A DNA stretch of 64,000 nt, from contig JAAXPZ010000024.1 of assembly GCA_012329065.1 (NCBI GenBank), positions 1 to 64,000 on the forward strand. The letters run 5' to 3'. Source of the DNA: Sulfurovum sp. Its GTDB lineage: Bacteria > Campylobacterota > Campylobacteria > Campylobacterales > Sulfurovaceae. Position numbers and translations under genes: made by a program. Numbering within the stretch: the first letter of the stretch is position 1; each line of letters opens with the position of its first letter. Of this stretch, positions 16,434 to 43,416 are shown piece after piece. Below the pieces are notes generated by a model that saw nothing but the letters and a program-made list of their open reading frames with translations, did no database searches and was not told the DNA's origin.

Positions 16434-19400
16434 ATGTTAAGAACTAAACATTTGATTACTAGCTATTTTGTTGCCAATGTGCTTTTAGGTGCTGTGAGTT
16501 TTGCTGAAATTGTAAAGATTTCTTCAAAGTCAAATAATAATATTATTCCACAAAAAAAGATAATATTTACAAAAACATCAAGCAATAGTGCCATGCAGGC
16601 AATGCAGTCTGTTGTAAAATTGCAACAAAAAGATGTGCCATATGCCAAAGGTGAAGCGATAATTATCATGAAGGAAGGATTGTCCTACGCTAACATATCA
16701 TCAATACTGTCAAGCAATGGTGCCAGTACAGTAAAAGAGTTTAAAACCTTATCAGCAAAAAATTCTGCTAGTTATCTGTTGATATCTTCGGTCAACTCTA
16801 CAGAAAATCTAATTAAAAGTCTAAAGAATAATCCAAATGTAAAGTCTATATCACCAAACTATAAGCGTAAAAAATCTGCCTTACCTAACGACAGTAGAAT
16901 TTCTGAGTCATGGGGATTGTACAATACAGGACAAAGCGTAAATGGTACACTAGGCACCGCTGATGCTGATATCAATGCTATAGGCGCATGGCGTGTGGAG
17001 ACCAATGCCTCTGAAACAGTTGTCGCTATTTTTGATTCTGGTGTTGACTATACACATGAAGATCTCAAAGATAATATGTGGAGAAATTCAGGCGAAACGG
17101 CAGGAGATGGAATAGATAATGATAGCAATGGATTCATCGATGATATACATGGCTACAATTTTGCTGCACAGAGCGATGGCAGTAATAGTGCAGATGTTAT
17201 GGATAGTGATGGACATGGCACGCATATCGCTGGTATCATAGGGGCAAAAGGAGACAATACAAAAGGCATCTCTGGTGTGAACTGGGATGTTAAGATGATG
17301 GCATTTAATATTTATAGACCAAGCGGCTTTACTTATGACAGTGATATACTCGAAGCGATAGAGTATTTGCTTGATATGAAATCTAAGGGTGAAAATATAG
17401 TTGCAGTCAATGCGTCTTATGGAGGCACTGGAGGAAGCCAAACTGATCCTATGAAAGATGCAATAAAAAGCCTTGGAGATGAGGGTATAGTTTTTGTAGT
17501 AGCAGCAGGGAATGATGGATACAATAATGATATCACACCAAGCTATCCAGCCTCATATAATACAGGAAACATCATAGCCGTGGGAGCATCGGATCAAAAT
17601 GATGAATTGGTATCTTGGTCACATCATGGGAAAAATAGTGTCGACATAGTAGCTCCGGGAGTCAATATACTAAGTACTCTTCCTGGGGGAGGAGTGGTCG
17701 ATACTTCAATATTTTCTGATGATATGGAAAGCGGTATGGGTAGCTGGATACATACTGGCAGTGGCGATACATGGGCAATAACTAATGAGAATGCCCAAAG
17801 TGGTACGCTGGCTTGGTCAGATAGCCCAGATGCTAATTATACTGCAAATGATGATGCTTCTTTATCTTATAGTACTGATATAGATTTATTAGCTTATGCG
17901 GGAGAGAGAATAGGGCTGGGTGCATGCCTAATGTATGAACTTGAAGATGGTTATGATTTCTTGTATGTTGAAGTATCAGGAAATAGTGGTACTAGCTGGA
18001 CAGAAGTGAGTAGATTTACTGGTTCTCAAAATGATTGGTTTTGTGCTGGTGTTGTTATTCCAGAAGATTTAAAAACGGCAAACTTTAGAATGAGATTTAG
18101 ACTAGATTCTGATGGTTCAGGTCATAGAGATGGAGTCTATATAGACGATATACGCATTGGTAGTCTTGGTGACTCTGCAGCTTATGGGTTTAAACAAGGA
18201 ACTTCAATGGCAACACCATATGTTACAGGAAGTATCGCACTAGTAGCCAAACAATTCCCTTCAGAAAATGTGTATCAAAGAATCAATCGTATCTATAGTG
18301 CAGCAGATAAGCTTAGTGCTCTCACAGATAAAGTAGCGACAGGAGCACGATTAAATATAGGAAATGCTATGCAGGCTGATATATCACTCAAGCCGATGAT
18401 TATAGATGTCAATAAAACTCAGGGATTGAAAACAGGTGATATTTTGACTATAGTTGGCATGGAGTTTGGTGCGTCTGAAGGTAAAGTCTATTTTGATGAC
18501 GCAAACAGCAGCAACCAGCCTGTTGAAGCGTTGATGCTAAGTTGGTCTGATGAAGAAATTATTGTAGAAGTTCCAGAAGGTGCAGGAAGATACCTCTCTA
18601 TAGAAACAGCATCAGGTGAGAAATCAGTCAACTCATTAATAGTTACAGCATGGGAACCAGTAGCACCCATAGTGACCGCTAGACAAGATGCGGCTGTAGC
18701 AACATACAATGATAAACTGTATGTTTTTTCAGGTTCAGCAGATAGTGACAATCTTTCCTCATCAGAAGTTTATGACGCACAGAATGATAGTTGGGAAGAC
18801 ATAGCCAATATTCCAACACCTAGAACACAAGCAGCAGCCGTAGCTCTAAACGATAAAATATATGTCATAGGCGGATTTGCAAATTATGTATCTGTGGATA
18901 CTGTAGAGTCCTATAATCCTGCTACCGATGAATGGAACAGTACTGTAGCACCCTTGCCACAAACTGTGCACGGAGGGCAGGCTGTCATACTCGAGGACTC
19001 ACTATATTTTGTAGCTGGGGTAAACAATTGGGCTTCAGTAAATACTCTATATAGATATAATGAAAGCAATAATACATGGTCAGAAATGGCAACACTCAAT
19101 ATCGCTAGATCTTGGCATGTTGCAGCAGTATTCAATGGCAAAATATATGCCTTTACAGGCTTTACAGATACATATGAGTGGACAAAAACAGTAGAAGAGT
19201 ATGATCCAGCCACAAACACCTGGACAACAAAATCAACAGAAATGCCTTCAGCTAGATGGGTTGGTGCAGGTGCTGCAAACAAGGATGGCATCATTATCGC
19301 AGGAGGACATACGGGACCAGATGAGGGGTATTTCCCAACCAACAATGTAATGTTTTATGATCCATCAACTGATGTTTGGAACCATAATAAAGACTCCATA

Positions 19401-20678
19401 ACTGACTATCTAGCTCCAAAAACATATACATCCATGGCATTTATGGAAAATAGAGGCTTTTATATTATATGTGGACAGGGGTCTTTTAGTAATGAGGTTG
19501 AGATGCTAAATATCGCAGCAATTGCCCAGGATGATGTAGCCACGACCGATGAAGATAGCAGTATAGATGTAGCAGTTTTGGACAATGACAGTGATGCAGA
19601 AGGTAATATCACTATAGTATCTGTGACAACGCCTGTAAATGGTACATCAACAATTAGTGCTTCTGTTGTCAACTATATGCCAAATGTAAACTTCAATGGT
19701 ACAGATAGCTTCTCTTATACTATTACTGATGGCAATGGCGTAAAGAGAAGTGCAACAGTTACGCTCACTGTTAATCCTATCAATGATAAGCCTGTAGCTA
19801 TCGCAGATACTGTTACCACAGATGAAGATCAGGCTGTCAATATAGATGTGCTTGCCAATGATAGTGATATCGATGGGGATACACTAACAGTTTTAATTAG
19901 CAATAGTCCATCAAATGGAAGTACAACTGTTAATGCAGATGGTACAGTGACCTACACACCTAATGCAGATTTTAATGGCAGTGATAATTTTGAGTATAAA
20001 CTCGTTGATATGGCAGGAGGAAGTGCTGTGGTGGGTGTTGAAATGACAGTAAATCCTATCAATGATACGCCAGTAGCCATAGCAGACACAGCGACTACAG
20101 AAGAGAGTCAAGCTGTCAACATAGCGGTACTTTCCAATGATAGTGATATCGATGCAGACGCACTCACTGTATCTATAGTTGTAAGTCCGTCAAATGGAGT
20201 TGTAGCCGTCAATGCAGACAATACAATCAAGTATACACCAAGTATTGGATTTAGCGGAACAGATACTTTTACTTATATGCCAAATGACGGTACTGTAGAT
20301 GGCAATCCAGTAGTGGTGTCCATAGAGGTAAATGCTACAGTGGACACAAAAGTTATAGTTATCGCAAAAATACTAGAATATGCAGAAAATGCTGGAGAAG
20401 CCCCCACTGTTCAAGACTATCAAGATGCTGGTATAGAGGGTGTAACGGCTGAAAATCTAGATGTAGTAAATGAAGCAATGAGCACCCTCTTGCAAAACCA
20501 AAATGGCATACAGGCTGAAGATAGAATACAAGAAGTTGCAGATAATGCTATAGCTGGTCTAGGCAATAGTGGGGGCGGTTGTACCTATAATCCAAACAAC
20601 AATAGCATAGATTTTACAATAATCTTGATGATACTTGGTTCACTGCTGTATCCTATTAGACGCAGGCTTTTCTCGTAG
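16434..20678 (+). CDS. Secreted S8 subtilase with inserted beta domain, IPT, kelch and cadherin-like repeats, JDVT-CTERM-like tail
   Basis: 1414 residues from ATG 16434, chosen for its AAAGGG site (an in-frame ATG at 16401 lacks one). Signal peptide about 1-25. I9-like propeptide about 70-150. S8 catalytic domain has Asp201 (FDSGVDYTHEDL), His261 (DGHGTHIAG), oxyanion Asn360 (AAGNDG) and Ser591 (GTSMATPY). A beta-rich MAM-like insertion of about 150 residues (DDMESGMGSW...YIDDIRIG) sits between Asn360 and Ser591. Then come an IPT/TIG domain (about 650-740), roughly six kelch repeats (about 745-1030) and three cadherin-like/VCBS-type repeats starting with 'DEDxxIDVxVLxNDSD'. The end is GGGC (Cys1383), a hydrophobic segment and RRR, a JDVT-CTERM-type sorting signal. 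Probably surface-displayed after processing by the product at 23618. Confidence 0.88.
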   Translation: MLRTKHLITSYFVANVLLGAVSFAEIVKISSKSNNNIIPQKKIIFTKTSSNSAMQAMQSVVKLQQKDVPYAKGEAIIIMKEGLSYANISSILSSNGASTVKEFKTLSAKNSASYLLISSVNSTENLIKSLKNNPNVKSISPNYKRKKSALPNDSRISESWGLYNTGQSVNGTLGTADADINAIGAWRVETNASETVVAIFDSGVDYTHEDLKDNMWRNSGETAGDGIDNDSNGFIDDIHGYNFAAQSDGSNSADVMDSDGHGTHIAGIIGAKGDNTKGISGVNWDVKMMAFNIYRPSGFTYDSDILEAIEYLLDMKSKGENIVAVNASYGGTGGSQTDPMKDAIKSLGDEGIVFVVAAGNDGYNNDITPSYPASYNTGNIIAVGASDQNDELVSWSHHGKNSVDIVAPGVNILSTLPGGGVVDTSIFSDDMESGMGSWIHTGSGDTWAITNENAQSGTLAWSDSPDANYTANDDASLSYSTDIDLLAYAGERIGLGACLMYELEDGYDFLYVEVSGNSGTSWTEVSRFTGSQNDWFCAGVVIPEDLKTANFRMRFRLDSDGSGHRDGVYIDDIRIGSLGDSAAYGFKQGTSMATPYVTGSIALVAKQFPSENVYQRINRIYSAADKLSALTDKVATGARLNIGNAMQADISLKPMIIDVNKTQGLKTGDILTIVGMEFGASEGKVYFDDANSSNQPVEALMLSWSDEEIIVEVPEGAGRYLSIETASGEKSVNSLIVTAWEPVAPIVTARQDAAVATYNDKLYVFSGSADSDNLSSSEVYDAQNDSWEDIANIPTPRTQAAAVALNDKIYVIGGFANYVSVDTVESYNPATDEWNSTVAPLPQTVHGGQAVILEDSLYFVAGVNNWASVNTLYRYNESNNTWSEMATLNIARSWHVAAVFNGKIYAFTGFTDTYEWTKTVEEYDPATNTWTTKSTEMPSARWVGAGAANKDGIIIAGGHTGPDEGYFPTNNVMFYDPSTDVWNHNKDSITDYLAPKTYTSMAFMENRGFYIICGQGSFSNEVEMLNIAAIAQDDVATTDEDSSIDVAVLDNDSDAEGNITIVSVTTPVNGTSTISASVVNYMPNVNFNGTDSFSYTITDGNGVKRSATVTLTVNPINDKPVAIADTVTTDEDQAVNIDVLANDSDIDGDTLTVLISNSPSNGSTTVNADGTVTYTPNADFNGSDNFEYKLVDMAGGSAVVGVEMTVNPINDTPVAIADTATTEESQAVNIAVLSNDSDIDADALTVSIVVSPSNGVVAVNADNTIKYTPSIGFSGTDTFTYMPNDGTVDGNPVVVSIEVNATVDTKVIVIAKILEYAENAGEAPTVQDYQDAGIEGVTAENLDVVNEAMSTLLQNQNGIQAEDRIQEVADNAIAGLGNSGGGCTYNPNNNSIDFTIILMILGSLLYPIRRRLFS

Positions 20679-20742
20679 CATCTTTTTACTGGAGGCTGTC
20701 ACTTAGGCAGTCTCTCTAGACACACTAAACAAGAAGGAAACA

Positions 20743-23610
20743 ATGGTGTTTAAAAAACATAGAATCATTCACTGTGCATATATGATTATCTTAATAGCAA
20801 CTGCGAGTTTTGCCAAAGCTCCAAATGCTTCAGGCAGCAAAATGAAGACTCCATACGCCAAAGGTGAAGTCATCGTAGTCCTCAAAAAAGGAAAAGAGAT
20901 TAGCGATATAAACTCAAGCTTATCTCGTAGTAGCATAAGGGTCGTAAAATCGTATAAATCCATCGCTAGCAAAAGTAAAAGCTCATATCTTCTGATAAAA
21001 GGAAATCTACCCACACAAAAGCTTGTAGCTAAGCTAAAAAGCAATCCAAATGTAAAATCTGCCTCCCCAAACTATAGGAGAAAACTCAATCTAACACCAA
21101 ATGACCCTAAATTTTCAGACTTATGGGCACTTAATAACATAGGTCAACCCATAAGGGGCACTGCTGGAACTGATGATGCTGACATCAATGCAGTTGAGGC
21201 TTGGGATATCGAATCAAATGCATCAAATACAGTTGTAGTAGTGTTCGACACGGGTGTTGATTATAATCACGAAGATCTCCGTAGAAACATCTGGATAAAC
21301 AGTGTAGAGCTTAATGGAGCTATCAGCGTAGATGATGATAATAATGGCTATATAGATGATATATATGGTTATGATTTTGCTTCTGATAATGACGGTGGTG
21401 ATGATTCTGACCCTATGGATATACATGGGCACGGTACACATATAGCTGGCACTATAGGAGCTGTTGGAGATAATGGAGTTGGCGTAGTGGGTGTCAATTG
21501 GGATGTAAAGATCATGGCTATCAAGGTATTTAGACCAGAGCTACACAATTATGATAGTGATGTGCTCGAAGCGATTGATTATGTACTAAAGATGAAATCA
21601 AGAGGGGTCAACATCGTAGCAATAAACGCTTCTTATGGTGCGATGGAAGGAGAACAAGCAGATCCTATGAATGGAGCGATCGCTAGTCTTGGTGATGCTG
21701 GTATAGTTTTTGTAGCTGCAGCTGGCAATGATGATGTTGATACTGATGTTAGACCACACTATCCGTCTTCATACAGTGCCTATAATATACTTTCAGTTGC
21801 AGCTACGGATTATAAAGATAAGCTAGCATGGTTTTCAAATTTTGGCAGCACTTCTGTAGATTTGGCGGCTCCTGGAGTCAATATACTGAGTACTTATCCA
21901 GGAGGTGCAGATGTAGATCGCAGTATCTTTTTTGATGATGTAGAATCAGGTGTTGGTAACTGGATAAGTTATGGAGCCAATAACAGCTGGTCAATTACCC
22001 AAGAAGATGCCAATAGCTCTACTCATGCATGGACAGATAGCCCCAATAATAAATATAAAGATGATACAAATGCTTCTCTTGCTTATGATTCAGATATAGA
22101 CCTTACTGCTTATTTTGGAGAATCTATTGGGCTGGGTGCCTGCATGATTTATGAGCTTGAAAAAGGATACCATGACTGGATGTTGTGGGATAAGGTGCTG
22201 ATAGAGGTCTCTGCAGATAGCGGAAATAGTTGGGCTTTACTTCAAGAGCTTGGAGATAAGCAAAGTAGCTGGAAATGTACGGCTTACGCGATACCTAATG
22301 CCTACAAGACAGCAAACTTTAGAATGAGATTTCGTATAACAACTGATGGTTCGACAGTTTATGATGGTATCTATATCGACAATATAGCTATAGGGAGACT
22401 AAGTCCATCTAAAAGGTATGGCTACTCCTCTGGTACTTCCATGGCTTCTCCATATGTAGTTGGTACTGTAGCACTCATGGCGGCCCAGTATCCAGATGAA
22501 AATACAAGTTACCAAATAGCTAGGATTCTAGGTGGTGTTGATAAAATGGATAATTTAAGTCAAAAAGTTGTAGTAGGAGGCAGGCTCAACATATACAAAT
22601 CAATAGAACTTAGCCTTGTTGCACCAGTAGGTGTAGATGACAACGCAAGCACAGATGAGGATAATAATATTACAGTTTCAGTGCTTTCAAATGATAGTAG
22701 CTTAAATGGCAATAGTCTAAGTATAGTGAATCTTACAACACCAGCAAAAGGCAAAGTAAGTATAAATGGTGCTGATATTATATATGTCCCAAATGCAGAC
22801 TTTAATGGCATAGATAGTTTTAAATATTCACCAAATAATGGTCTATTGAATGGAAACAAAACAACTGTCACAATAACTATAAATCCTATAAATGATAGAC
22901 CTATTGCAACGGAAGACAACATAAGTACAAGAGAGGATATAAATGTAAGTATTTCTGTTTTAGACAATGATATCGACATAGACAGCAATACCCTAACGAT
23001 AACTAGTGTCGCTAAGCCTGCAAACGGAATAGCTACTATTGATAATAAAAGTATCACATACAGCCCAAATATCGGCTTTAATGGCATAGATAAATTTATT
23101 TATACTATCAGTGATGGAAATATGACAGCTAGTGCAAGTGTTAATGTTGCAGTATCTCCTGTCAATAGTATCCCAACAGCATATGATAAAAATATTACAA
23201 TAAACGAAGATTCAGTTAATATACCTATTGTGCTAAGTGGACAAGATGCAGATGGAGATACCTTGACCTATATTATAGTGTCAAATCCAAGTAACGGCAC
23301 ACTAAGTGGCACAGAAGCAAATATTAAATATACCCCAAATACTAATTTTAGCGGCACAGATAGTTTCACATATAAAATCAACGACAGTACAGTAGATTCT
23401 AATATAGCTACTGTCACAATACTAGTTAATTCAGATATTGATACAGATGATAATGATGATATATTGGATAAGAATGATTCTACACCACTAGGCGGGGGTA
23501 GTGGAGGAGGTTGTACATATAATCCCAATAATAAAGATTTTGACTTTATGTTGATACTCATGATATTTGCTACAATACTTTATTCAGCAAGACAAAAATA
23601 TTCACTATAG
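20743..23610 (+). CDS. Second secreted S8 subtilase with cadherin-like repeats and JDVT-CTERM-like tail
   Basis: 955 residues with AAGGAA before the ATG. Signal peptide about 1-25 and I9-like propeptide about 38-120. Catalytic Asp169 (FDTGVDYNHEDL), His230 (HGHGTHIAG), Asn329 and Ser566 (GTSMASPY) are all present. The same beta-rich insertion (FDDVESGVGNW...YIDNIAIG) splits the catalytic domain as in the upstream paralogue. Three cadherin-like repeats follow, then an acidic Ca-binding-like run (DIDTDDNDDILDKND). The end is GGGC (Cys924), a hydrophobic segment and a short basic tail. Kelch and IPT domains of the first paralogue are absent, so the two diverged by domain gain or loss. Likely exported and anchored the same way. 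Confidence 0.88.
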   Translation: MVFKKHRIIHCAYMIILIATASFAKAPNASGSKMKTPYAKGEVIVVLKKGKEISDINSSLSRSSIRVVKSYKSIASKSKSSYLLIKGNLPTQKLVAKLKSNPNVKSASPNYRRKLNLTPNDPKFSDLWALNNIGQPIRGTAGTDDADINAVEAWDIESNASNTVVVVFDTGVDYNHEDLRRNIWINSVELNGAISVDDDNNGYIDDIYGYDFASDNDGGDDSDPMDIHGHGTHIAGTIGAVGDNGVGVVGVNWDVKIMAIKVFRPELHNYDSDVLEAIDYVLKMKSRGVNIVAINASYGAMEGEQADPMNGAIASLGDAGIVFVAAAGNDDVDTDVRPHYPSSYSAYNILSVAATDYKDKLAWFSNFGSTSVDLAAPGVNILSTYPGGADVDRSIFFDDVESGVGNWISYGANNSWSITQEDANSSTHAWTDSPNNKYKDDTNASLAYDSDIDLTAYFGESIGLGACMIYELEKGYHDWMLWDKVLIEVSADSGNSWALLQELGDKQSSWKCTAYAIPNAYKTANFRMRFRITTDGSTVYDGIYIDNIAIGRLSPSKRYGYSSGTSMASPYVVGTVALMAAQYPDENTSYQIARILGGVDKMDNLSQKVVVGGRLNIYKSIELSLVAPVGVDDNASTDEDNNITVSVLSNDSSLNGNSLSIVNLTTPAKGKVSINGADIIYVPNADFNGIDSFKYSPNNGLLNGNKTTVTITINPINDRPIATEDNISTREDINVSISVLDNDIDIDSNTLTITSVAKPANGIATIDNKSITYSPNIGFNGIDKFIYTISDGNMTASASVNVAVSPVNSIPTAYDKNITINEDSVNIPIVLSGQDADGDTLTYIIVSNPSNGTLSGTEANIKYTPNTNFSGTDSFTYKINDSTVDSNIATVTILVNSDIDTDDNDDILDKNDSTPLGGGSGGGCTYNPNNKDFDFMLILMIFATILYSARQKYSL

Positions 23611-23617
23611 GAGAGTA

Positions 23618-24058
23618 ATGCTGACAAAAAAGCAAATACATGCAAGATATGCAGTTGCTATCGCTACGGCACCTGCATTTTGTGTCTTGTACGCAAAATT
23701 ATTTGGATACAGTGCAGAGAGTATCTTCTGGCTTTTTGATGATACGAGGTCATTGATTTTTCTGATTATCCTATACCCAATCATAGAGGAACTTGCTTTT
23801 AGAGGGCTTATCCAAAGCTTTATATCTGCAAAGACAAAGCATGCTGAGTTTTTTTGGGGTATCACTTGGGCAAATATACTGACTTCTGTTCTATTTGCAC
23901 TTATGCATCTTGTTTATCATACCCCTATTTGGGCTATACTAGTTTTTTTCCCATCTCTAATATTTGGATACTTTAAAGACAAGTATGATATCGTACTTCC
24001 AAGTATATTTTTGCATATGTTCTATAACTTATGCTTTTTTTCTATAGTTGGAAACTAA
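23618..24058 (+). CDS. CPBP-family glutamic intramembrane protease, probable JDVT-CTERM processing enzyme (MrtJ-like)
   Basis: 146 residues from ATG 23618, eight bases after the second subtilase stop, with AGGAGAG upstream. Four or so membrane helices. The three CPBP/ABI motifs are present: EExxxRG (Glu57, Glu58, Arg62), a conserved His97 in FALMHL, and HxxxN (His133, Asn137). Dedicated CPBP proteases are known to pair with specific C-terminal sorting signals, including the JDVT-CTERM system. Immediate linkage to two proteins with that type of tail makes it the probable sorting protease. The assignment to MrtJ is by context and motif, not by a profile search. Confidence 0.8.
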   Translation: MLTKKQIHARYAVAIATAPAFCVLYAKLFGYSAESIFWLFDDTRSLIFLIILYPIIEELAFRGLIQSFISAKTKHAEFFWGITWANILTSVLFALMHLVYHTPIWAILVFFPSLIFGYFKDKYDIVLPSIFLHMFYNLCFFSIVGN

Positions 24059-24084
24059 TACCAAATTAAAAAAGGAGCACTCAG

Positions 24085-24441
24085 ATGAAACAAATAATAA
24101 AAATACTTTTTATGGCATTACTCTGCATAGGATGCAATAGTCCAAATTTACCTAAAGAAGAAGAATCAAAAGTTGAAAAGAAACAGGCATCTCAAAAGAG
24201 CAATACTAAATCAGAGCTAATCGTCAGATTTAAAAAAGGCACAAGTGTACAGAAAGCGACAAATATAATTGAAGCTAACAATATGCTGGTGATAAAAGTG
24301 TATAAAAGTATCTCAAAGAGCAGTAATATGCCCATGCTTCACATAGGGTCATCTATGGACATAAAGATGATGAAGAGGATTGTCAAAGGTATTTCTAGTA
24401 TCTCTTCAGCTTCCGAGAATAGCAAGCGAAGAATGTTTTAA
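24085..24441 (+). CDS. Small lipoprotein resembling a free-standing subtilase propeptide (I9-like)
   Basis: 118 residues with AAAAAGGAG upstream. Lipoprotein signal peptide with lipobox LLCIGC (Cys17), then a charged linker. Residues about 43-118 line up with the propeptides of the two upstream subtilases. ELIVRFKKGTSVQKATNII matches their GExIxxxKxG start, VIKVYKSIS matches VVKSYKSIA, and the final SENSKRRM matches SPNYRRK. It has no protease domain. It could be an inhibitor that protects the cell from the surface proteases, or an intermolecular chaperone for their folding. The alignment is by eye. Confidence 0.7.
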   Translation: MKQIIKILFMALLCIGCNSPNLPKEEESKVEKKQASQKSNTKSELIVRFKKGTSVQKATNIIEANNMLVIKVYKSISKSSNMPMLHIGSSMDIKMMKRIVKGISSISSASENSKRRMF

Positions 24442-24536: not shown

Positions 24537-25061
24537 ATGGTAGCAGTTTTAGAGAGTTTTATGTATGAGGTGTCAAATCTGTTTTTGGTACCAGTTCTTC
24601 TTATGATAATAGCACTTTTTGTTTATTCATTTTTTCAGATAGGTATTTTTATAATGGAATCAATCCAAAGACGAAAACATTCTTCATCCTATCAAAAGCA
24701 CTGTGAGTCCTCAAGTCCTAAAAAAATTAAAGGCTATCCAATATTTTCATATTTTGTAGCCAACCGCTTAGATGATGAGGATACTCTAGAGCTCTTTGCA
24801 TACAAAAAACTGGAAAATATCTCTATAGTCACTCGCGTAGCTCCCATGCTAGGGCTTGTGGCAACCATGATACCTATGGGACCAGCACTCAAAGCACTAT
24901 CTGATGGCAATGTGCAGGGCATCAGTGAAAACCTCATCATAGCATTTGCCGCAGTTATCTTTGCATTGATAGCCGCTTCTATTACTTACTGGATCGCCTC
25001 TAAACGAAAAGGATGGTACGCAAGTGAAATTATAGACATACTCAAGAGAAAAACAACATGA
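24537..25061 (+). CDS. MotA/TolQ/ExbB-family protein (HmuT-like position)
   Basis: 174 residues with three membrane helices: one N-terminal (about 18-38) and a pair flanking the family core TRVAPMLGLVATMIPMGPALKALSDGN. ENLIIAFAAVIFALIAASITY forms the third helix. The core matches the proton-channel region of TolQ/ExbB/MotA. In Bacteroidetes hmu operons a protein of this family lies beside DUF2149 and CobN-like HmuS genes, as here. It probably forms a proton-driven complex with the next two products. GAGGAG precedes the start; the 3' end overlaps the next gene. Confidence 0.82.
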   Translation: MVAVLESFMYEVSNLFLVPVLLMIIALFVYSFFQIGIFIMESIQRRKHSSSYQKHCESSSPKKIKGYPIFSYFVANRLDDEDTLELFAYKKLENISIVTRVAPMLGLVATMIPMGPALKALSDGNVQGISENLIIAFAAVIFALIAASITYWIASKRKGWYASEIIDILKRKTT

Positions 25062-25402
25062 AACTACTGCAAGAAGATGAATCTTTAAACCCTATTCTTT
25101 CAGCAGTGAACCTTGTCGATGTTTTTTTGGTAATCATCGCAGCTTTGCTTATCTCAATAGCTCAGAACCCTCTCAATCCATTTTCTGCTGATGATGTCAC
25201 AGTTATCAAAAACGCAGGCAAAAAAAACATGGAAGTCATCATCAAAAAAGGCAAAAAACTTACCAAATATAAATCAGATGGAAAAATAGGTGAGGGCGAG
25301 GGAGTAAAGGCAGGTGTTGCCTATAAGATGAAAGATGGAAACATGATATATGTTCCTGAAGACAAAAATACAGGAAATAGAAAAACAGGAGACAAAAAGT
25401 GA
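25058..25402 (+). CDS. DUF2149 protein (HmuU-like position)
   Basis: 114 residues. A short cytoplasmic start (EDESLNPILSAVNLVDVFLV) leads into one membrane helix. The periplasmic part contains NPLNPFSADDVTVIKNAGKKNMEVIIKKG and ends in AYKMKDGNMIYVPE, the conserved DUF2149 tail. The topology resembles ExbD, and it overlaps by four bases with both neighbours. It is proposed to couple the ExbB-like motor to the CobN-like protein. Family call is firm from pattern; function is inferred from gene order. Confidence 0.78.
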   Translation: MKLLQEDESLNPILSAVNLVDVFLVIIAALLISIAQNPLNPFSADDVTVIKNAGKKNMEVIIKKGKKLTKYKSDGKIGEGEGVKAGVAYKMKDGNMIYVPEDKNTGNRKTGDKK

Positions 25403-28400
25403 TAAAAAAACTACTTTTAATCATTGCAATGCTACCTATGTCTATACATGCAAGTACTCAAAAAGACATACTTATTATAAGTACAAGCATGGGTATCGTA
25501 TCGCAAAGTGCAAAAATGTCAGCATTTAAAAGAGCTGCTGAGAAAGAAGGTTTAAGTGTAGTCGTTAAATTTGAGAGAGAGATTGATGTAGAGAAGTTTA
25601 TAGAGCAGATCAACAGCTATAAGATAGTAATGTTTGATTCTTTAGCAGGAGCTAGAACTCTTGGTTCATTGCTTGGAAAGTTTGACCAAGCGGTACAAAA
25701 TGTCAATGAAAACATAGCTATCATCCCGCTACCGCTCAAAGATGAAAGTCCGTACAGAAAAAATATAACTATAGAGCAAAATATTGAGCTATATAAGTAT
25801 TGGGAAAATGGTGGAAGAACAAACTTTTCAAATATGGTAAAATATTTGAAGGTGCATATCTTAAAAATATCCAAAGAAAATATAGCTGAGGCAATAATAT
25901 TACCAAAAAATGGAGTATATCATCCAAAAAACCCTGATATTGCTTTTGCTAGTCTAAGTGAATATACCAAATCATTTGGTATAGATCTTCAAAATACTAA
26001 AAAGCCAGTTGTTGGGGTAAAGTTCCACAGAAGCTCGCTTGTTAGCGGTGCCATAGGTCACATAGATGCTATGATCGAGTATCTTGAAAGTAAAGGTGCA
26101 TATACTATACCATTTTACACAGACATAAGTGGAGGAGATCCCGTAGGAGTAAAATTTCTCATAGAAAACAATCAAACAGTAGCAGATGTAGTCGTCAATT
26201 TTCAAATCATGGTGATAGACCATGAGAGCCAAAGGGCTGCTTTAAAACAACTAAACATACCTACTTTGCATGCACTCAGTTATTCAAAAGGTAGCCAAAA
26301 AGAGTGGGAAGCAGATCCTTATGGTATAGATTTCCCTATGATTCCAATGTATTATATTATCCCTGAAACACTCGGATTTATTGACCCGCTAATAGTCGCT
26401 GTGCAGGATTATAAAACAAAAGAGATGATTCCTATAAAGGCACAGCTTGAGTCTTTGGCCAATAAAGCAATAAATATTTCAAAGCTAAAAAAGATAGATA
26501 ACTCCAAAAAGAAAATAGCCATCATGTACTACAACTACCCCGCTGGCGTTGACAACATGGGCGCTAGTTTTTTAAATACACCTGAGAGCTTGGAGTTGAT
26601 TCTAAAAGAGTTTAAAGCACAGGGCTATACAACACAAGAGCAGAACAATACCTACCTACGAAAAAAAGCCACAGCTGGACTCAAGGTGATGTATAGTGTA
26701 AATCTATACAAAGAGGCAAAAAAAATATTGGAAAACGATAGTGCAGCTCTGTTTCCTTATGATGAGTACATAAAAGAGTTTTACAAGCTTCCTGTAGATA
26801 CTAGAACAGATATGATTAGATTTTGGGGCTATCCACTTCAGTCAAAGATGTTGATTTTCAACAAAGAGGATCAAAAGTGGTACTTTCTAGTACCTAGAAT
26901 AGAGATAGGAAACATCGCCATCATGCCACAGCCTCGTCGAGCAGAGAGAGAAGATAGTATATGGGAGATGAATAAAGATATAAATAGAGATGATTCATCA
27001 TTGTGGCACAATCCAAAGGTATCTATAAGTCACTCGTATCTAGCCAGCTATCTGTGGGCTAGGAAGCAGTTTGCTGCCAATGCTTTGGTGCATCTAGGCA
27101 CTCACGGAACACAAGAATGGAGTCCTGGCAAAGAAAGAGGACTTAGAGTTGGAGATGATGCACTCTCAGTGCTTGGTGATGTGCCTGTTGTCTATCCATA
27201 TATCACCAACAACCTAGCTGAAGGGATACAAGCTAAAAGAAGAGGAAGAGCCACACTAATATCTCATCAGACTCCACCATTTGGATTGACGGGAACATAT
27301 AAAGAGCTTAGCGAAATCATGGATTTTATAAATCAATACAAAAGTGTAGATGATGGGATGCTCAAGACAGAGCTCAAAAAACAGATTAGCGAAGTAGTGG
27401 TCAAGATGAATATCAATAAAGATATAGAATTTACTCCAGAAATGATGGAGAATGATTTTGACAATATGCTGTCAAAAGTAGAAGACTATATACTGGGAAC
27501 CTCAAAGCAAGCTATGCCCTTGGGTATGCATACATTTGGTACATATCCAAAAGAAGAGCACCTCATCTCAACTGTCATGCAGATGGTGGGCTCTGAGTTT
27601 ATAACCAAAGTAGAGGGTGACGAAAAGTATTTTGCTAAAAACTACAAGGAGTTCAATAGTTCCAAAACCTACAGACTCATCAAGGATTATGTCATAGATG
27701 AAAAGTCCATGAAAGACATTGACGATGGAGAGATAAAAGCTTATCTGAGAGTTGCAGTTGACTATAAATACAGATTTATAAAAACCAAAGAGATAAAGAA
27801 TTTCATTAGGGCACTAGATGGGGAATTTATAGAGACTGGCATAGGAGGAGATAGTATCAGAAACCCAGACTCACTAGCAACAGGAAGTAATATGTACGGA
27901 TTTGATCCTTCCAAAGTGCCTACAAAAGCAGCCTACAAGACAGGCAGTAAGCTCATAAAAGATTTTATAGAAAATCATTATGCAGAAAATAAAAAATACC
28001 CTAGAAAGCTGACTTTTAACCTCTGGTCGCTTGAGACGATGCGTCACTATGGGGTGCTGGAGAGTCAGATACTATATGCCATGGGAGTGCGGCCTATATG
28101 GAATGAAACTGGTATCTCAAACAGAATGATACAGGGCATGGCGAAGCAACAGCTTGAGAGCTTTTTGCCAAGCGGCATGGCAAAGTGGATATCAGAGCTC
28201 GTAACTATACAGAGAATACAGTTTCTCCTAGACCTTACGCCAGATGATTGGCTAGTCAAGGCTAAAAAGATGATCAAACACGCTTATGCTGTAAGTAAAG
28301 GTCAGATAGAAGATATAGAGATTATCCCATATAGCGAGCTCAAAAGACCGAGAGTTGATGTGGTGATATCTGCTACAGGACTATATAGGGATACTTTTCC

Positions 28401-29583
28401 TCAAGTGATGCAGTTGATTGCAAAAGCTGTAGAAAAGGTAGCGGCATTAAAAGAAGATGGGAATTATCTGAGAGAAAATGCTCTATCTTTGGAGAAAATG
28501 CTTGCCAAAAGAAAAGATATAAATGAAAGTGAAGCCAAGTACCTCTCGACAATCAGAATATTTTCAAATAAAACTGGAGATTATGGTAGCGGAGTGGATG
28601 AGATAGATGATACAGGTAGGTGGGACGATGACAAGAGAATCTCACAAAATTATGTTCAAAAGCTAGGGCATTATTTCGGAAGTGATACGAGTAGATGGAG
28701 TGAAAAGAGAGTAGATCTTGACCTCTATTCAAAGAACCTAAGTGGCACAGAGGGGATCATATTTTCAAGAACCTCCAATCTCTATGGGCTACTCACAAGT
28801 GATGACCCATTTGAATACTTCGGCTCCATCGCAATGGCTGTTAGAAATGTAGATGGCAAAGCCCCTAAAACCTATATAGCAAACCTAAGAGATCCAAATG
28901 ATGCAAAAATAGAATCAACAGCCAAGTTTCTAAGTAAGGAGCTTAGGGGTAGATATTTCCACCCCAAATGGATAGAAGAAGCCATGGCAGAGGGCTATAG
29001 TGGCGCAACACTTATACAAGATGTGATGGCAAATTTCTGGGGCTGGCAGGTAGTAGATCCAAATGTCATAAGAGATGACCAGTGGCAGGAGTTTGTAGAG
29101 ATATATGTTAATGACAAGTATGATATGCAGATACAAGAGTGGTTTAAGTCACTCAATCCAGATGCCTATGCAAGAATCATACAGAAGATGCTTGAGGCGA
29201 ACAGAAAAGGCTACTTCAAGACAGATGAAGATACGCTCAAAAAGCTTGTAGAGCTATACAAAGAGCTTGAGACCAAATATACAATATCTAAAAACTATAA
29301 TGAAAAGTTCAAGAAGTTTGTCAATGACAAAGCAGTAGGCTTTGGACTCATGACACCATCAGGCAAGATGATAAACCAAACTATGCCAAAAGCCTCATCA
29401 AAAGCCAAATCAGAGCAAAAACAGAAGAAAGCAGATGCCCCAGCAAAAGTCAAAGGCCAAGAGCTAAAAAAAGTAGAAAAAAGTAAAACCGAAATTAGAT
29501 ATCAAGAGTATCTAGTCTTGAGCTTTTTACTGCTGATTATGGTTGGCGGCATGCTGTATCAATCCAGAAGAAAGGAGTACTGA
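25399..29583 (+). CDS. Periplasmic membrane-anchored CobN-like chelatase, HmuS type (paralogue 1)
   Basis: 1394 residues. It starts with a signal peptide (about 1-19) and ends in one membrane helix followed by RRKEY, so the large domain should be periplasmic. CobN/BchH family motifs: HLGTHGTQEWSPGKERGL (His565, His569), PPFGLTGTYKEL, GGDSIRNPDSLATG, LETMRHYGVLESQILYAMGV, RPRVDVVISATGLYRD and RYFHPKWIEEAM. True CobN works in the cytoplasm with CobS/CobT, which are absent here. The combination with ExbB-like, DUF2149 and a TonB receptor matches HmuS, reported to remove iron from haem. A Lys-rich stretch precedes the anchor. About 70 extra residues (near 900-970) are missing in paralogue 2. Substrate could also be a cobalt or nickel tetrapyrrole. 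Confidence 0.85.
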   Translation: MIKKLLLIIAMLPMSIHASTQKDILIISTSMGIVSQSAKMSAFKRAAEKEGLSVVVKFEREIDVEKFIEQINSYKIVMFDSLAGARTLGSLLGKFDQAVQNVNENIAIIPLPLKDESPYRKNITIEQNIELYKYWENGGRTNFSNMVKYLKVHILKISKENIAEAIILPKNGVYHPKNPDIAFASLSEYTKSFGIDLQNTKKPVVGVKFHRSSLVSGAIGHIDAMIEYLESKGAYTIPFYTDISGGDPVGVKFLIENNQTVADVVVNFQIMVIDHESQRAALKQLNIPTLHALSYSKGSQKEWEADPYGIDFPMIPMYYIIPETLGFIDPLIVAVQDYKTKEMIPIKAQLESLANKAINISKLKKIDNSKKKIAIMYYNYPAGVDNMGASFLNTPESLELILKEFKAQGYTTQEQNNTYLRKKATAGLKVMYSVNLYKEAKKILENDSAALFPYDEYIKEFYKLPVDTRTDMIRFWGYPLQSKMLIFNKEDQKWYFLVPRIEIGNIAIMPQPRRAEREDSIWEMNKDINRDDSSLWHNPKVSISHSYLASYLWARKQFAANALVHLGTHGTQEWSPGKERGLRVGDDALSVLGDVPVVYPYITNNLAEGIQAKRRGRATLISHQTPPFGLTGTYKELSEIMDFINQYKSVDDGMLKTELKKQISEVVVKMNINKDIEFTPEMMENDFDNMLSKVEDYILGTSKQAMPLGMHTFGTYPKEEHLISTVMQMVGSEFITKVEGDEKYFAKNYKEFNSSKTYRLIKDYVIDEKSMKDIDDGEIKAYLRVAVDYKYRFIKTKEIKNFIRALDGEFIETGIGGDSIRNPDSLATGSNMYGFDPSKVPTKAAYKTGSKLIKDFIENHYAENKKYPRKLTFNLWSLETMRHYGVLESQILYAMGVRPIWNETGISNRMIQGMAKQQLESFLPSGMAKWISELVTIQRIQFLLDLTPDDWLVKAKKMIKHAYAVSKGQIEDIEIIPYSELKRPRVDVVISATGLYRDTFPQVMQLIAKAVEKVAALKEDGNYLRENALSLEKMLAKRKDINESEAKYLSTIRIFSNKTGDYGSGVDEIDDTGRWDDDKRISQNYVQKLGHYFGSDTSRWSEKRVDLDLYSKNLSGTEGIIFSRTSNLYGLLTSDDPFEYFGSIAMAVRNVDGKAPKTYIANLRDPNDAKIESTAKFLSKELRGRYFHPKWIEEAMAEGYSGATLIQDVMANFWGWQVVDPNVIRDDQWQEFVEIYVNDKYDMQIQEWFKSLNPDAYARIIQKMLEANRKGYFKTDEDTLKKLVELYKELETKYTISKNYNEKFKKFVNDKAVGFGLMTPSGKMINQTMPKASSKAKSEQKQKKADAPAKVKGQELKKVEKSKTEIRYQEYLVLSFLLLIMVGGMLYQSRRKEY

Positions 29584-29584
29584 T

Positions 29585-29881
29585 ATGAAGAAAATTATTT
29601 TAGCAATATTTATTTCTAGTGGACTTTTTGCCCATACACCACTGCTCACTTGTATAGACGAAGGTGACGGAACTATCACTTGTGAGGGCGGCTTTAGTGA
29701 TGGATCGAGTGCAGGTGGAGTTAAATTTAGAGTAGAGCAGAAAGACAAGGTGATTCTTGAGGTCAAGCTTGATAGCAATAGTGAAGTAAACTTCAAAAAA
29801 CCACAAGGGTCTTACAGGGCTATCTTTGACGCAGGTGCTGAGCATATCGTAGTAGTCAAAAGCAAAGATATATTTGAATAA
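29585..29881 (+). CDS. Small exported protein in the CobN-like operon
   Basis: 98 residues from ATG 29585, with AAAGGAG upstream and one base after the previous stop. Signal peptide about 1-16 (ending LFA), mature protein starting HTPLLTCIDEGDGTITCEGGFSDGSS. Two cysteines and the N-terminal His could bind metal or form a disulfide. The remainder is beta-rich and acidic. Small proteins with this pattern accompany DUF4198 and CobN-like genes in other iron or nickel uptake loci, as I recall. Probably a periplasmic accessory or metal-binding protein; no named family is claimed. Confidence 0.65.
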   Translation: MKKIILAIFISSGLFAHTPLLTCIDEGDGTITCEGGFSDGSSAGGVKFRVEQKDKVILEVKLDSNSEVNFKKPQGSYRAIFDAGAEHIVVVKSKDIFE

Positions 29882-29895
29882 TACAAAGGGAGAGT

Positions 29896-30780
29896 ATGAG
29901 AAATTTTAAGAAACTAACAAGCAAGATTGCCTTGAGCATGCTGGCTTTGGCTATAGCTGCAAGTGCCAACCATTTTCAGTTGATGTACACGCCTGAGACT
30001 ACTCTGCAAAGCGGTAGAACGGTAAAGATGATTCATGCAATGATACATCCCTATACTGATAGGAAAATTATGGATATGGGTAAACAGCACAAGGGTGACA
30101 AGGACTTCTTGGAGCCCGAAGAGTTTTTTGTAGTCCATAAAGGTATCAAAACAGATCTGATGGAGACACTTGAACCGATCTTGTTTCAAGGTAAAAAAAG
30201 AGCAGGAAAAGGATACAGATCGAAACACAAGCTCAAAAAGATGGGAGATCATCTTTTTGTACTCAAGCCTGCCCCTTACTACTCTACACTAGAGGGTATT
30301 TATCTCAAGCAGATCACCAAGCTACTGGTCAATATAGCAGGAAAACCTACTGACTGGGACAGAGAGCTTGGACTAGAGGCTGAGATCATACCCTTATCCA
30401 AGCCTTATGGCATCTGGGAGGGCTCCAGCTTCTCTGCTATGGTCAAGGCTGAGGGTATCCCAGTACCATTTGCTCAAATCGAGGTAGAGTATCTCAATAG
30501 TGAGATAGACATAGAAAACCTAAAAGTGGGTGCTTTTAAAACTATGGCAAAGAACCAAAACTTCAAAACCATAGAGTTTAAAGCCAATGAAAGGGGTGAG
30601 TTTACCTTTCACCTGCCCAAAGAGGGCTGGTGGGGTTTTAGAGCCAAACATATAGGACTCAAAAAAGACTACAAAGAAAAGGAGTTGAGCATTGAGGGAA
30701 TAATATGGGTGCAGGTTAAAAAAGTAGAGATCAATAAGACAGAAAGAGCAAAGAGTAGCGAAGATAACAACAGCCAGTAA
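29896..30780 (+). CDS. DUF4198-like periplasmic protein
   Basis: 294 residues with a signal peptide ending near AIAASA (residues 19-24), followed at once by NHFQLMYTPE. The arrangement matches DUF4198: an N-terminal His-containing strand, a middle region (DHLFVLKPAPYYSTLEGIYL) and a C-terminal Ig-like part (EIIPLSKPYGIWEGSSFSAMVKAEGIPVPFAQIEVEY, then GEFTFHLPKEGWWGFRAK). DUF4198 proteins are annotated as nickel or metal uptake related and often sit with TonB receptors. It ends the first haem/CobN operon; a Fur-like site follows before the next one. Confidence 0.75.
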   Translation: MRNFKKLTSKIALSMLALAIAASANHFQLMYTPETTLQSGRTVKMIHAMIHPYTDRKIMDMGKQHKGDKDFLEPEEFFVVHKGIKTDLMETLEPILFQGKKRAGKGYRSKHKLKKMGDHLFVLKPAPYYSTLEGIYLKQITKLLVNIAGKPTDWDRELGLEAEIIPLSKPYGIWEGSSFSAMVKAEGIPVPFAQIEVEYLNSEIDIENLKVGAFKTMAKNQNFKTIEFKANERGEFTFHLPKEGWWGFRAKHIGLKKDYKEKELSIEGIIWVQVKKVEINKTERAKSSEDNNSQ

Positions 30781-30824
30781 TTTGCTCTATGTTGGCGAGT
30801 ATTTAATAATACTCTAAGCAATAA

Positions 30825-30845
30825 TTGATAATAATTATTATACTT
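30825..30845 (+). promoter_or_regulatory. Fur-box-like palindrome before the lipoprotein/TonB-receptor operon
   Basis: GATAATAATTATTATAC at 30827-30843 is an almost perfect A+T palindrome matching the Fur operator core. It lies about 22 bases before the start at 30866. AGAAGGAG is the ribosome site. This splits the island into separately controlled operons. Confidence 0.6.
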
Positions 30846-30865
30846 AATAAATAGAAGGAGAAGAG

Positions 30866-33547
30866 ATGAGAAATTTGATGATGATGTGTCTGGCAGTAGT
30901 TGCTGGACTTTTTATACTTAGTGGTTGTGGCGGTGGTGGCAATCCCCCATCTGAAGAAAATCCAGAAAAAGTGACAGGATATCTGATAGATTCAGCTATA
31001 GCAGGGATATCATATGATTGCAATGGCAGTGAAGCTGGAGCCGTAACAGCTTCTGATGGTGCATTTGAGTGCTACAGCCCTCCAGTGACTTTTAAACTTG
31101 GCGGTATGACATTGGGGACTATACAGACACTTCCTAGTGATAGCAAAGTATATCTACAAGATTTACTAGGTGTGGATAGAAGTGCTTTTACTGATCCAAA
31201 GGTTGTTAAGCTTGCAAGACTATTGCAGTCGCTTGATGAGAATAATGATCTCTCTGATGGCATTACAATTACAGCTGAAGTAGCAGCCAATTTTACAGCT
31301 AGTGACTCTATGAATCATGATTTATCAGATCTTGTGATAAAAGGTAATCCTCAGGCTGCACTTGTAAGTGAAGAGAGTGCTATACGACATCTACAGCAGA
31401 GTTTAAACAATAATCATCCTCATCCAGGAGAAACAGAAGCAGAGGTTATAGCAAGATATCTAAAAGATATACAGGCTACCAATAGAGATCTTAATACAAG
31501 TGATCCAGTGATAAGTACTGCTCTTGCTGAATTAGCAAAATGCTTATATAGAAAAGATAAGACACTACTACAAGCAGACATTATCGCTACTTTTGGTTCA
31601 CATGTCAGAGAGGAAGATCTGAATTCAACCAACTATTCTACTGTTGAAGGGTGTGATACTGTGACTATCAGAAAAGTAGGTGGAACATTTACTGACTCTC
31701 AAAAAGTACTTTACTATACCATCAATAACCCAGTTACAGGAAATGAACAGCTTCTAGCATACGACTATGACAACAAAAAGTCTCAGGTAGTCAATACTGA
31801 TGTAATCTTAGGTCATAAAGTATTTTTGTTTGAGGGTGAAAAAGATGGGGGCAAGGAGAAATTTACAGGTAAAAAGTTTGGTGTCTATCTAGATCCAAAT
31901 CAAAATTTTAAAGATCGAACACATACGGTAAATTCTAGATATGGATCCTATGATATCAACTATAGGTTTTATATGGATAATGCATTGATGAAGTTTGATG
32001 TTAAAAATCCTTCTAGGGTAAGTTATGTCTTTAGGTCAAATCAAATCCCTGCTGAGCTAAAAAACAGTGGTGTGTCAAAAGTTGGAAAAGCATTTAAGAT
32101 ACTGGAAAATATCGTTGACCCAGACAACTCTTATGTAGGACTCAAGGTTCTAGACTCTCTAGCAGATGATATTAGAGGAGAGACTGAGGACAACAAAACT
32201 CAAGCAGGACTTACAGTTAGAGTAGGAGACTCCAAGGCAGTAGCTGGTACGCCTATAGCGATTATAAAAGATACTGATTTCAAGAGTGATGGGCTACTTG
32301 TCCTATATGCACCTCCATATATACCAGAACAATCCAATGGAACATATACACTTAAAAAGTACAATGCATCACTCACGACGAGTACTACTATAGCGAACGG
32401 AAAGTACTATTTTGCTACAGAAAATGATACTCATATATATCTCTTCAAAGAGGGAAGCGATAAGATCTATGCATTTGGTAAATCAGCTGATACTCTCACT
32501 GAAGTAGCAGGTGTAACTCTAGCTGGTGCTTATAGCAGAGATGTACATGCCAAAGGCTCTAGTCACGGATCATCTACAAGACTCATAGATGGAGGTACAA
32601 CGCTGTCTGGCAGAAGACCTCATCTAGGTAGCGGTGATGATGCTTATGTCTCATTCCATTATGACCTGCATGCCAATATAGGAAGTGCTTTTATCTTTGG
32701 TTCATTTGGAGCATACAAAAGTGCTCAAGTCTTTAAGCTCACGGGAACTACAGGAATAAAGATTATGGACAATGGTGACGCAGTCGATCACAGTAGTGCT
32801 CCTACAACTGAGCCTATAAGTGGGCATATCAATCTCATAGCTGTCAGTGGAAATAAACTTCTATCAGAAATAGGCTGGTTTGATGGTAATGCTACACTAG
32901 GTGGCACTTGCAGGAGAGGTTACCCTATGCCATTTTCTATGAACGGTAAAGCGTGCGTCCATGTGAAGTATGGCTATGTTGAGACAAATACAACTAGCTC
33001 TGCGGATGATATAACTGTACTTGAATTTGATGACAATAACGCCAGTACAGATGACAGTATGGTGACAAAAAATCTTCCATACTATGTAGCTAGAAGAATC
33101 GGTCCAGTTGCAGTAGGCGATAAGCTTTATATATCACTATTTAAGGGCGGTTCTAGGAGAAATGGATATGTTCATCAGCAGTATCAATTTCAACTTTCAG
33201 ATATGTCAAAGGTGAAAACAGTAGTGGGCAGAACATACTTCACTAAGACACATCAGGCAAATAATGGTATTTATGATGGGACAGTGATAGCATTTTCACA
33301 AACACAACAGACTATATTTAATGTAGATGACAATACCGAGTTGGCTGATGTTTCAGACATAAACGGCAAGCCAGGATTTTCTATCTCCGCACTTACTAGT
33401 GGAGCACCACTCTCTGGAGTAGGTAGTCTCTCTATGCTGAAAAACAACATAGGAAATCATGCTTTTGAGATGTTTGTAGTTGATACAGAAAATGGTGGAT
33501 TTGAATATATAGACTTTGCTCCTTTTGGTGGCTGGATATATGAATAG
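30866..33547 (+). CDS. Large lipoprotein upstream of the TonB receptor, candidate surface haem or protein binder
   Basis: 893 residues with a lipoprotein signal ending LSGC (Cys21) and a GGGG linker. Residues about 35-85 form an Ig-like domain (GYLIDSAIAGISYDC...GAFECYSPPVTFKLGGMTLG) common at the start of marine surface lipoproteins. A helical region follows to about 250. From about 265 to the end the protein is beta-rich with repeated short blades, suggesting a propeller. Its 3' end overlaps the TonB receptor start by eight bases, so the two are co-translated. HmuY-like haem-binding lipoproteins hold this position in Bacteroidetes, but no sequence similarity to HmuY is seen. No functional family recognised. 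Confidence 0.7.
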   Translation: MRNLMMMCLAVVAGLFILSGCGGGGNPPSEENPEKVTGYLIDSAIAGISYDCNGSEAGAVTASDGAFECYSPPVTFKLGGMTLGTIQTLPSDSKVYLQDLLGVDRSAFTDPKVVKLARLLQSLDENNDLSDGITITAEVAANFTASDSMNHDLSDLVIKGNPQAALVSEESAIRHLQQSLNNNHPHPGETEAEVIARYLKDIQATNRDLNTSDPVISTALAELAKCLYRKDKTLLQADIIATFGSHVREEDLNSTNYSTVEGCDTVTIRKVGGTFTDSQKVLYYTINNPVTGNEQLLAYDYDNKKSQVVNTDVILGHKVFLFEGEKDGGKEKFTGKKFGVYLDPNQNFKDRTHTVNSRYGSYDINYRFYMDNALMKFDVKNPSRVSYVFRSNQIPAELKNSGVSKVGKAFKILENIVDPDNSYVGLKVLDSLADDIRGETEDNKTQAGLTVRVGDSKAVAGTPIAIIKDTDFKSDGLLVLYAPPYIPEQSNGTYTLKKYNASLTTSTTIANGKYYFATENDTHIYLFKEGSDKIYAFGKSADTLTEVAGVTLAGAYSRDVHAKGSSHGSSTRLIDGGTTLSGRRPHLGSGDDAYVSFHYDLHANIGSAFIFGSFGAYKSAQVFKLTGTTGIKIMDNGDAVDHSSAPTTEPISGHINLIAVSGNKLLSEIGWFDGNATLGGTCRRGYPMPFSMNGKACVHVKYGYVETNTTSSADDITVLEFDDNNASTDDSMVTKNLPYYVARRIGPVAVGDKLYISLFKGGSRRNGYVHQQYQFQLSDMSKVKTVVGRTYFTKTHQANNGIYDGTVIAFSQTQQTIFNVDDNTELADVSDINGKPGFSISALTSGAPLSGVGSLSMLKNNIGNHAFEMFVVDTENGGFEYIDFAPFGGWIYE

Positions 33548-35633: not shown

Positions 35634-35645
35634 AAAGTTCAATCA

Positions 35646-39566: not shown

Positions 39567-39840
39567 ATGGCTAATGAGCATAAGAGTATTGACCGCAGTC
39601 ATTATAGGATATGGACTTACCGTGCTTTATACCGTAGCTATATCAAAAACACTTATGATTCTAGGTCTGACCAAAGTGAACGCAACTGTAAGCATGCAAC
39701 TTCTATCTTTTTTAATTTATTCTATAGTGGTTATGTGGGTATTTTCTGTTGCTTCTCTTAGAAAGCTTTGGCTTCATATCACCTACTCTATGATTATATC
39801 TCTAGTCTTGATATATCTAATAAATATGGGACTACAGTAG
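39544..39840 (+). CDS. Small membrane protein of the DUF3649/iron-uptake type
   Basis: 98 residues from ATG 39544, overlapping the end of the CobN-like gene by 23 bases. Three predicted membrane helices (about 10-30, 42-65, 73-95) with few charges. Genes of this size in front of a PepSY protein and a DUF3325-like protein are common in TonB-receptor iron loci, where the first is DUF3649. The match here is based on length, topology and order, so the family name is tentative. Confidence 0.6.
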   Translation: MSITLGNKWLMSIRVLTAVIIGYGLTVLYTVAISKTLMILGLTKVNATVSMQLLSFLIYSIVVMWVFSVASLRKLWLHITYSMIISLVLIYLINMGLQ

Positions 39841-41393: not shown

Positions 41394-41671
41394 GTATTTT
41401 TATATCTGGTATTATTTTACTTGGATTGTTCTTTTTGTCACTAATATTATCTTATCCATACAAGAGATTATTTGGTGTTAAACCGAGTGGCAAGTACACA
41501 GTATACTTGCATCTACTTGGGTGGGGCATGCTTGTTGTTGGTATGATTTTATCTATCAAAACATACGGTGTCGGGATAGGTATCACATACTGGTTTGGAT
41601 ATATAACACTTATGGCTTTTTTACTAGTCATAGGATTGAGTTACAAAACAAAAAAGGAAAAAAAATGTTAA
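41390..41671 (+). CDS. DUF3325-like small membrane protein
   Basis: 93 residues, three membrane helices, overlapping the PepSY gene by ATGA. The pattern of a first helix, then YPYKRLFGVKPSGKYTVYLHLLGWGML, matches small DUF3325 proteins that follow PepSY genes in iron-uptake clusters. Probably a structural partner of the PepSY protein. Family match by pattern and position. Confidence 0.6.
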   Translation: MSIFISGIILLGLFFLSLILSYPYKRLFGVKPSGKYTVYLHLLGWGMLVVGMILSIKTYGVGIGITYWFGYITLMAFLLVIGLSYKTKKEKKC

Positions 41672-42552: not shown

Positions 42553-42560
42553 ATTGAGGA

Positions 42561-42609: not shown

Positions 42610-42636
42610 AATATAAACAAAAGAGCTTCTATAGAC

Positions 42637-43404: not shown

Positions 43405-43416
43405 AGGAGTAGATAG

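Follow-up and report, generated by a model that had tools for sequence, protein, structure and literature searches.

A putative lipoprotein resembling a free-standing subtilase prodomain beside a JDVT-CTERM/MrtJ locus of Sulfurovum

Organization of the protease locus

Four genes spanning positions 16434-24441 of a contig from the sulfur-oxidising genus Sulfurovum (Sulfurovum sp., GenBank assembly GCA_012329065.1, contig JAAXPZ010000024.1) probably constitute a surface-protease module, in which two subtilases would be sorted by the intramembrane protease MrtJ and controlled by a lipid-anchored propeptide acting as inhibitor or chaperone. The window considered here, i.e., the whole stretch of DNA that was analyzed, covered positions 1 to 64,000 of this contig (64,000 nucleotides). 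The open reading frame listing of the window placed the two subtilase genes head to tail on the + strand, and the main features of the locus were as follows.

16434..20678, + strand: subtilase 1, with signal peptide, prodomain, S8 domain, Kelch and Big_9 repeats and JDVT-CTERM (Pfam S8, 1.6e-40)
16584..16871, + strand: prodomain of subtilase 1 (match to the solo-lipoprotein profile, E 1.8e-10)
20568..20666, + strand: JDVT-CTERM tail of subtilase 1 (NF033191, 38.9 bits, six-frame search)
20743..23610, + strand: subtilase 2, with signal peptide, prodomain, S8 domain, Big_9 repeats and JDVT-CTERM (Pfam S8, 1.3e-38)
20857..21087, + strand: prodomain of subtilase 2 (solo-lipoprotein profile, E 5.6e-13; PF22148, 5.4e-7)
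23497..23607, + strand: JDVT-CTERM tail of subtilase 2 (NF033191, 31.7 bits in the six-frame search, 23497-23583; 26.7 bits for the whole protein)
23618..24058, + strand: MrtJ, glutamic-type intramembrane protease, 146 aa (NF033192; EExxxR, H and HxxxN motifs; Rce1 4cad)
24085..24441, + strand: putative lipoprotein, predicted free-standing subtilase prodomain (hhalign; AF2 model; kept beside MrtJ in four loci)

An alternative start was possible at 16401 for subtilase 1. For MrtJ, the ATG at 23618, with AGGAG upstream and 7 bases past the stop of subtilase 2, was a likelier start than the TTG at 23567, which would overlap subtilase 2. The lipoprotein gene lay 26 bases past MrtJ and had its own AAAGGAG upstream. 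Promoter and terminator scans returned matches at chance level only. The catalytic domain of both window subtilases contained a long insert ahead of the serine motif (window positions 17010-18350), part of which, in subtilase 2, matched a Reelin subrepeat/MAM-like model; the subtilase of locus L129, in another genome, was without insert.

A free-standing prodomain encoded as a putative lipoprotein

The fourth gene, which a previous sequence-only reading of this DNA had overlooked along with the haem- or metal-uptake-like surroundings, encoded a 118-aa product whose lipoprotein-like signal is followed by a linker and then by a domain aligning with the prodomains of both subtilases. Its alignment scores with both prodomains were higher than those of all 2000 shuffles. 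Comparison by hhalign of a profile built from four such stand-alone (solo) lipoproteins with five prodomains gave a probability of 98.9% (E 3e-17), and a genome search with the solo profile recovered the window prodomains of subtilase 2 (5.6e-13) and subtilase 1 (1.8e-10). By blastp, the window lipoprotein matched subtilase 2 (E 4e-5); because the comparison with subtilase 1 alone was not significant, the prodomain link rests on subtilase 2, the shuffles and the profiles. Pfam prodomain models stayed under their cut-off on the solo lipoprotein (PF22148, 16.8 bits vs 21), and a PDB sequence search with the solo profile gave no match.

The AF2 model of the lipoprotein displayed block mean pLDDT values of 85 to 95 over residues 41-110. 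The ten chains matching this model best were subtilase propeptides (Z 8.1-9.7, rmsd 1.8-2.6 over 60-68 residues), and most of these structural alignments reached residue 118 of 118 of the predicted model. Foldseek alone returned no E below 0.001 for the model, and the propeptide matches required a second structure comparison (VIA). Profiles and predicted structure showed the whole folded part of the lipoprotein to correspond to a predicted free-standing copy of the subtilase prodomain. Since the chain stops at the point of normal prodomain cleavage, the lipoprotein would not be part of any protease precursor. The putative lipobox, as read from the sequence, was CIGC in the window (atypical at -3) and LSGC, LAGC, IVGC, LVGC or VVGC in relatives, with an invariant cysteine.

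Distribution and role of the prodomain lipoprotein

The solo gene followed MrtJ in 4 of the 6 subtilase-type MrtJ loci: the window, L035 (genome G034), L037 (G017) and L042 (gene sizes the same as in G496). Two kinds of site were represented, L035, L037 and L042 sharing one chromosomal neighbourhood and the window lying in another. The subtilase-type loci L176 (G312; neighbours as in L052) and L177 (G334) were without solo gene, as were the MrtJ loci whose substrate was not this kind of protease. Solo genes were also encoded in two genomes with no MrtJ over cut-off: at L129 (G022), 4 bases from a subtilase that bears its own prodomain and whose Gly-rich tail has no Cys, and at L155 (G505), directly before a lipoprotein-like subtilase without visible prodomain. 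Given its presence beside related subtilases even in these two genomes, the solo gene goes with the subtilase and would serve the protease, not the sorter.

The subtilase of L155 having no visible prodomain, its solo lipoprotein must provide one in trans, if one is needed. This favours a role mainly as a folding chaperone in trans, or as a lasting surface partner, and not as an inhibitor; for the latter kind of partner the model would be PrcB, a small lipoprotein that PrtP requires and with which it interacts, the prcB gene lying upstream of that of PrtP (PMC8167434). The subtilases of the window, L035, L037, L042 and L129, however, carry prodomains of their own, and the inhibitor and chaperone roles are compatible, prodomains usually doing both. 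A chaperone or partner role in place of inhibition, the main rival reading, was held to be rather unlikely, and the split arrangement of L155 would constitute a natural test between chaperone and inhibitor.

A decaying, functionless remnant of a duplicated protease gene was judged very unlikely. The window solo did have the most diverged C-terminus of the four MrtJ-linked solos and had lost the SPNYKR motif, but all four were intact, retained the signal and the invariant cysteine, and shared residues absent from prodomains (e.g., PMLHxGS). They also branched apart from most prodomains (UFBoot 82), which speaks against recent local duplication. In the same tree, which was too short to place the solos of G022 and G505, the position of the L155 solo was unsupported.

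Sorting tails and MrtJ

The C-terminal tails of the subtilases were GGGCTYNPNNNSIDFTIILMILGSLLYPIRRRLFS (subtilase 1) and GGGCTYNPNNKDFDFMLILMIFATILYSARQKYSL (subtilase 2). As the sequence-only reading had stated, both carried GGGCTYNPNN followed by a hydrophobic segment and a basic end, with an invariant cysteine, and they matched the JDVT-CTERM model NF033191 (curated cut-off of 27 bits). Subtilase 1 scored over the cut-off both ways (32.7 bits for the whole protein, 38.9 in the six-frame search), and subtilase 2 was borderline (26.7 bits for the whole protein, just under the cut-off; 31.7 bits in the six-frame search, over it).

The CPBP glutamic protease that the same reading had placed directly after the subtilases was indeed encoded there, and passed the MrtJ equivalog model NF033192 (105 bits, cut-off 75); against the myxosortase MrtX model NF040593 it scored 38.2 bits, under the cut-off of 180. 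The catalytic motifs EExxxR, H and HxxxN were invariant in 8 aligned sequences. They read EELAFR, the first His of HLVYH, and HMFYN in the window, the variable letters differing in relatives. The best AF2 model had a mean pLDDT of 85 (five models spanning 85 to 47), and the predicted fold was Rce1-like (4cad, Z 9.1, rmsd 4.1 over 134 residues; next chain 4.5).

Co-occurrence of MrtJ and JDVT-CTERM, and range of substrates

Among 175 genomes of the family, MrtJ was found over cut-off in 23 and JDVT-CTERM in 24, all of the 23 being inside the 24 (hypergeometric p about 7e-28, kinship between genomes being ignored). The sole genome with tails and without MrtJ (G467) was a 78% complete assembly with its tails on small contigs. 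Seven of 99 relatives harbored MrtJ over cut-off, and the same seven harbored JDVT-CTERM; nearly every MrtJ of both genome tables directly adjoined a tail gene. A scan of GTDB genomes displayed the same pair in named Campylobacterota (L041-L054, L061, L094), Sulfurovum and Nitratifractor making up many of these. Family models, intact motifs, the predicted Rce1-like fold and co-occurrence support the CPBP gene product as the MrtJ sorter of the adjacent JDVT-CTERM tails. CPBP proteases have many different roles, but with the tail in 23 of 23 MrtJ genomes, MrtJ and tail genes adjacent, and the related MrtX processing MYXO-CTERM (PMC11980579), an incidental pairing in which the adjoining protein does not sort these tails is very improbable.

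The substrates extended beyond the locus. The sequence-only reading had described a self-contained system with all visible substrates adjacent to the enzyme; not all of them are, because a genome-wide family search located a third tail at C32:5051-5155, on a different contig of this genome, where it terminates a 299-aa protein. The term self-contained was unsupported, since the only MrtJ found must also serve this third, unlinked substrate, and several relatives also carried tails unlinked to MrtJ. With one MrtJ found and three tagged proteins, this genome would be a simple system for asking what the tail cysteine carries.

The third JDVT protein adjoined an ORF with TonB-receptor sequence. 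At this place on C32 (L031, 5045-9592), the 299-aa protein lay beside a 1170-aa ORF of which the first 211 residues were 44% identical to it, followed by a hydrophobic stretch and a basic end and then by a TonB plug; the 1170-aa ORF represents either a fusion or two separate genes that were read together. Next to the third JDVT protein, a cytochrome c peroxidase-like gene (L031, 3832-4783) was split over two frames, by frameshift or assembly error.

In the genomes searched, the substrates encoded beside MrtJ included S8 subtilases, C10 proteases carrying an I69 prodomain and one C39-like protease; a protein bearing a cellulase N-terminal domain and others of unknown type were also among them. 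One unlinked substrate was reprolysin-like (L039).

Genomic surroundings

Upstream of the module lay genes for two Dpp/Opp-type ABC importers, together with one HupE/UreJ and one DUF364 gene. Directly downstream, the possible uptake island at 24537-43938 encoded an ExbB-like protein, a small membrane protein (DUF2149) and a CobN-like protein with a C-terminal hydrophobic segment, and further downstream were DUF4198, a TonB receptor, a second CobN, PepSY and a ChaN-type haem-binding protein. The ExbB-like, DUF2149 and CobN-like genes, with a TonB receptor farther on, are shared with the Hmu haem uptake operon of Bacteroidota; here, in contrast, no HmuY or HmuT was identified, two CobN copies were present, and DUF364, HupE/UreJ and DUF4198 point equally to nickel or cobalt. 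In the Hmu system the haem de-chelatase HmuS is CobN-like and HmuU is homologous to ExbB (PMC12583661, PMC13227078), so that by analogy a haem- or metal-uptake island supplied by the proteases is plausible, nickel or cobalt being an equal reading. The window CobN was not found in 11 relatives, in a search run without positive control and with no empty insertion site demonstrated.

Proposed mechanism

After Sec-dependent export across the inner membrane, the two subtilase zymogens would remain anchored through their JDVT tails. MrtJ, judging from its family and its co-occurrence with the tail, would cut near the cysteine, which is probably lipid-bearing. Lipid on this invariant cysteine is proposed here as a hypothesis by analogy, and the Cys lipidation of MYXO-CTERM is likewise a hypothesis in the experimental myxosortase paper (PMC11980579). 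The folded protease would then continue to the outer surface, type II secretion being a possible route. GspD of the genome itself scored 256 bits against a TIGR02517 cut-off of 351, the match being cut by a contig end (C48). Because GspD homologues occurred in 99 of the 99 genomes searched (59 over cut-off), type II secretion was uninformative on MrtJ and was rejected as its correlate. Besides the low GspD score, points that weigh against the proposed module are the atypical lipobox and diverged C-terminus of the window lipoprotein, its absence from two subtilase-type MrtJ loci and the sub-cut-off Pfam prodomain scores.

Within the envelope, the lipoprotein would dock on the catalytic domain and place its C-terminus inside the active-site cleft, so that the proteases would be kept inactive, and it may also aid subtilase folding. 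Such docking would suggest how a cell keeps a broad protease in its envelope without self-harm. More speculatively, the proteases could supply peptides and haem or metal to the surrounding Dpp-like and Hmu-like uptake genes.

Comparison with known systems

The sorting pair is of an already known kind, and the added lipoprotein is the new part. JDVT-CTERM/MrtJ has been described in beta- and gammaproteobacteria as a two-gene neighbourhood of MrtJ and a single target (PMC11980579). The Sulfurovum locus agreed with it in tail model, enzyme model and the position of the enzyme gene directly after a tagged protein, but differed in belonging to the Campylobacterota, in having two tandem tagged proteins and a third unlinked one, in its tail core (GGGC[TS]YNP) and in the prodomain lipoprotein encoded as fourth gene. 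In Myxococcus, MrtX has been shown to cleave MYXO-CTERM, with surface anchoring (PMC11980579). Both systems rely on related glutamic intramembrane proteases and on tails with an invariant cysteine, a hydrophobic segment and a basic end, while the enzymes belong to separate equivalogs and the targets number dozens in Myxococcus and three here.

The stand-alone propeptide mimics named in one study are SUB1-ProM (Plasmodium), POIA1 (Pleurotus), the yeast proteinase B inhibitor and TgMIC5, all of them eukaryotic; the Plasmodium one is encoded beside subtilase genes and is a proven potent inhibitor (PMC6993865). The Sulfurovum lipoprotein shares with them a free-standing prodomain fold (predicted here) and, as in Plasmodium, a subtilase gene neighbour. 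It differs in being bacterial, in its lipoprotein-type signal and in its position beside a surface-sorting protease, and is a putative inhibitor. A literature search turned up no bacterial lipoprotein described as a prodomain inhibitor, and with the solo lipoprotein the stand-alone propeptide inhibitors would gain a bacterial member tethered to the membrane.

The dentilisin complex PrtP-PrcB-PrcA of Treponema likewise combines a surface subtilase with a small partner lipoprotein encoded alongside it (PMC8167434). No sorting tail or MrtJ is described for dentilisin, however, and PrcB is likened here as a partner only, not as a prodomain. The window subtilases scored 68.4 and 80.7 bits (the latter for subtilase 2) against the PrtP model NF033595, far under its cut-off of 300.

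Other proteases with adjoining small secreted proteins

A second kind of pairing was encoded at L037, where a 79-aa lipoprotein adjoined the C39-like JDVT protease, its residues 17-67 being 39% identical to residues 16-66 of the protease (E 7e-7). In this one genome the lipoprotein thus resembles the N-terminal segment of its own protease, a putative propeptide. That bacteria generally provide their surface-sorted proteases with a dedicated partner, a lipid-anchored copy of the protease's own pro-segment, is a possibility we hold with slightly more doubt than confidence. If true, the pairing would involve more than one protease family (S8, C39-like) and more than one anchoring mode (MrtJ tail, Cys-less tail, N-terminal lipid), and would be a general way of silencing a membrane-bound protease until the surface is reached.

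Secreted-looking proteins of about 136 aa without Pfam match were encoded directly before C10-type JDVT proteases (L032 5411-5818, L036 1-501). The product of L032 5411-5818 was dropped as a candidate inhibitor because it had no Pfam match and was not prodomain-like. At L130 (1642-4781), the gene of a related subtilase, which ended in a hydrophobic tail, overlapped a gene of the exosortase/archaeosortase family (TIGR04178, 50.8 vs 23 bits); by its sequence this is the same kind of putative protease with a different predicted sorter.
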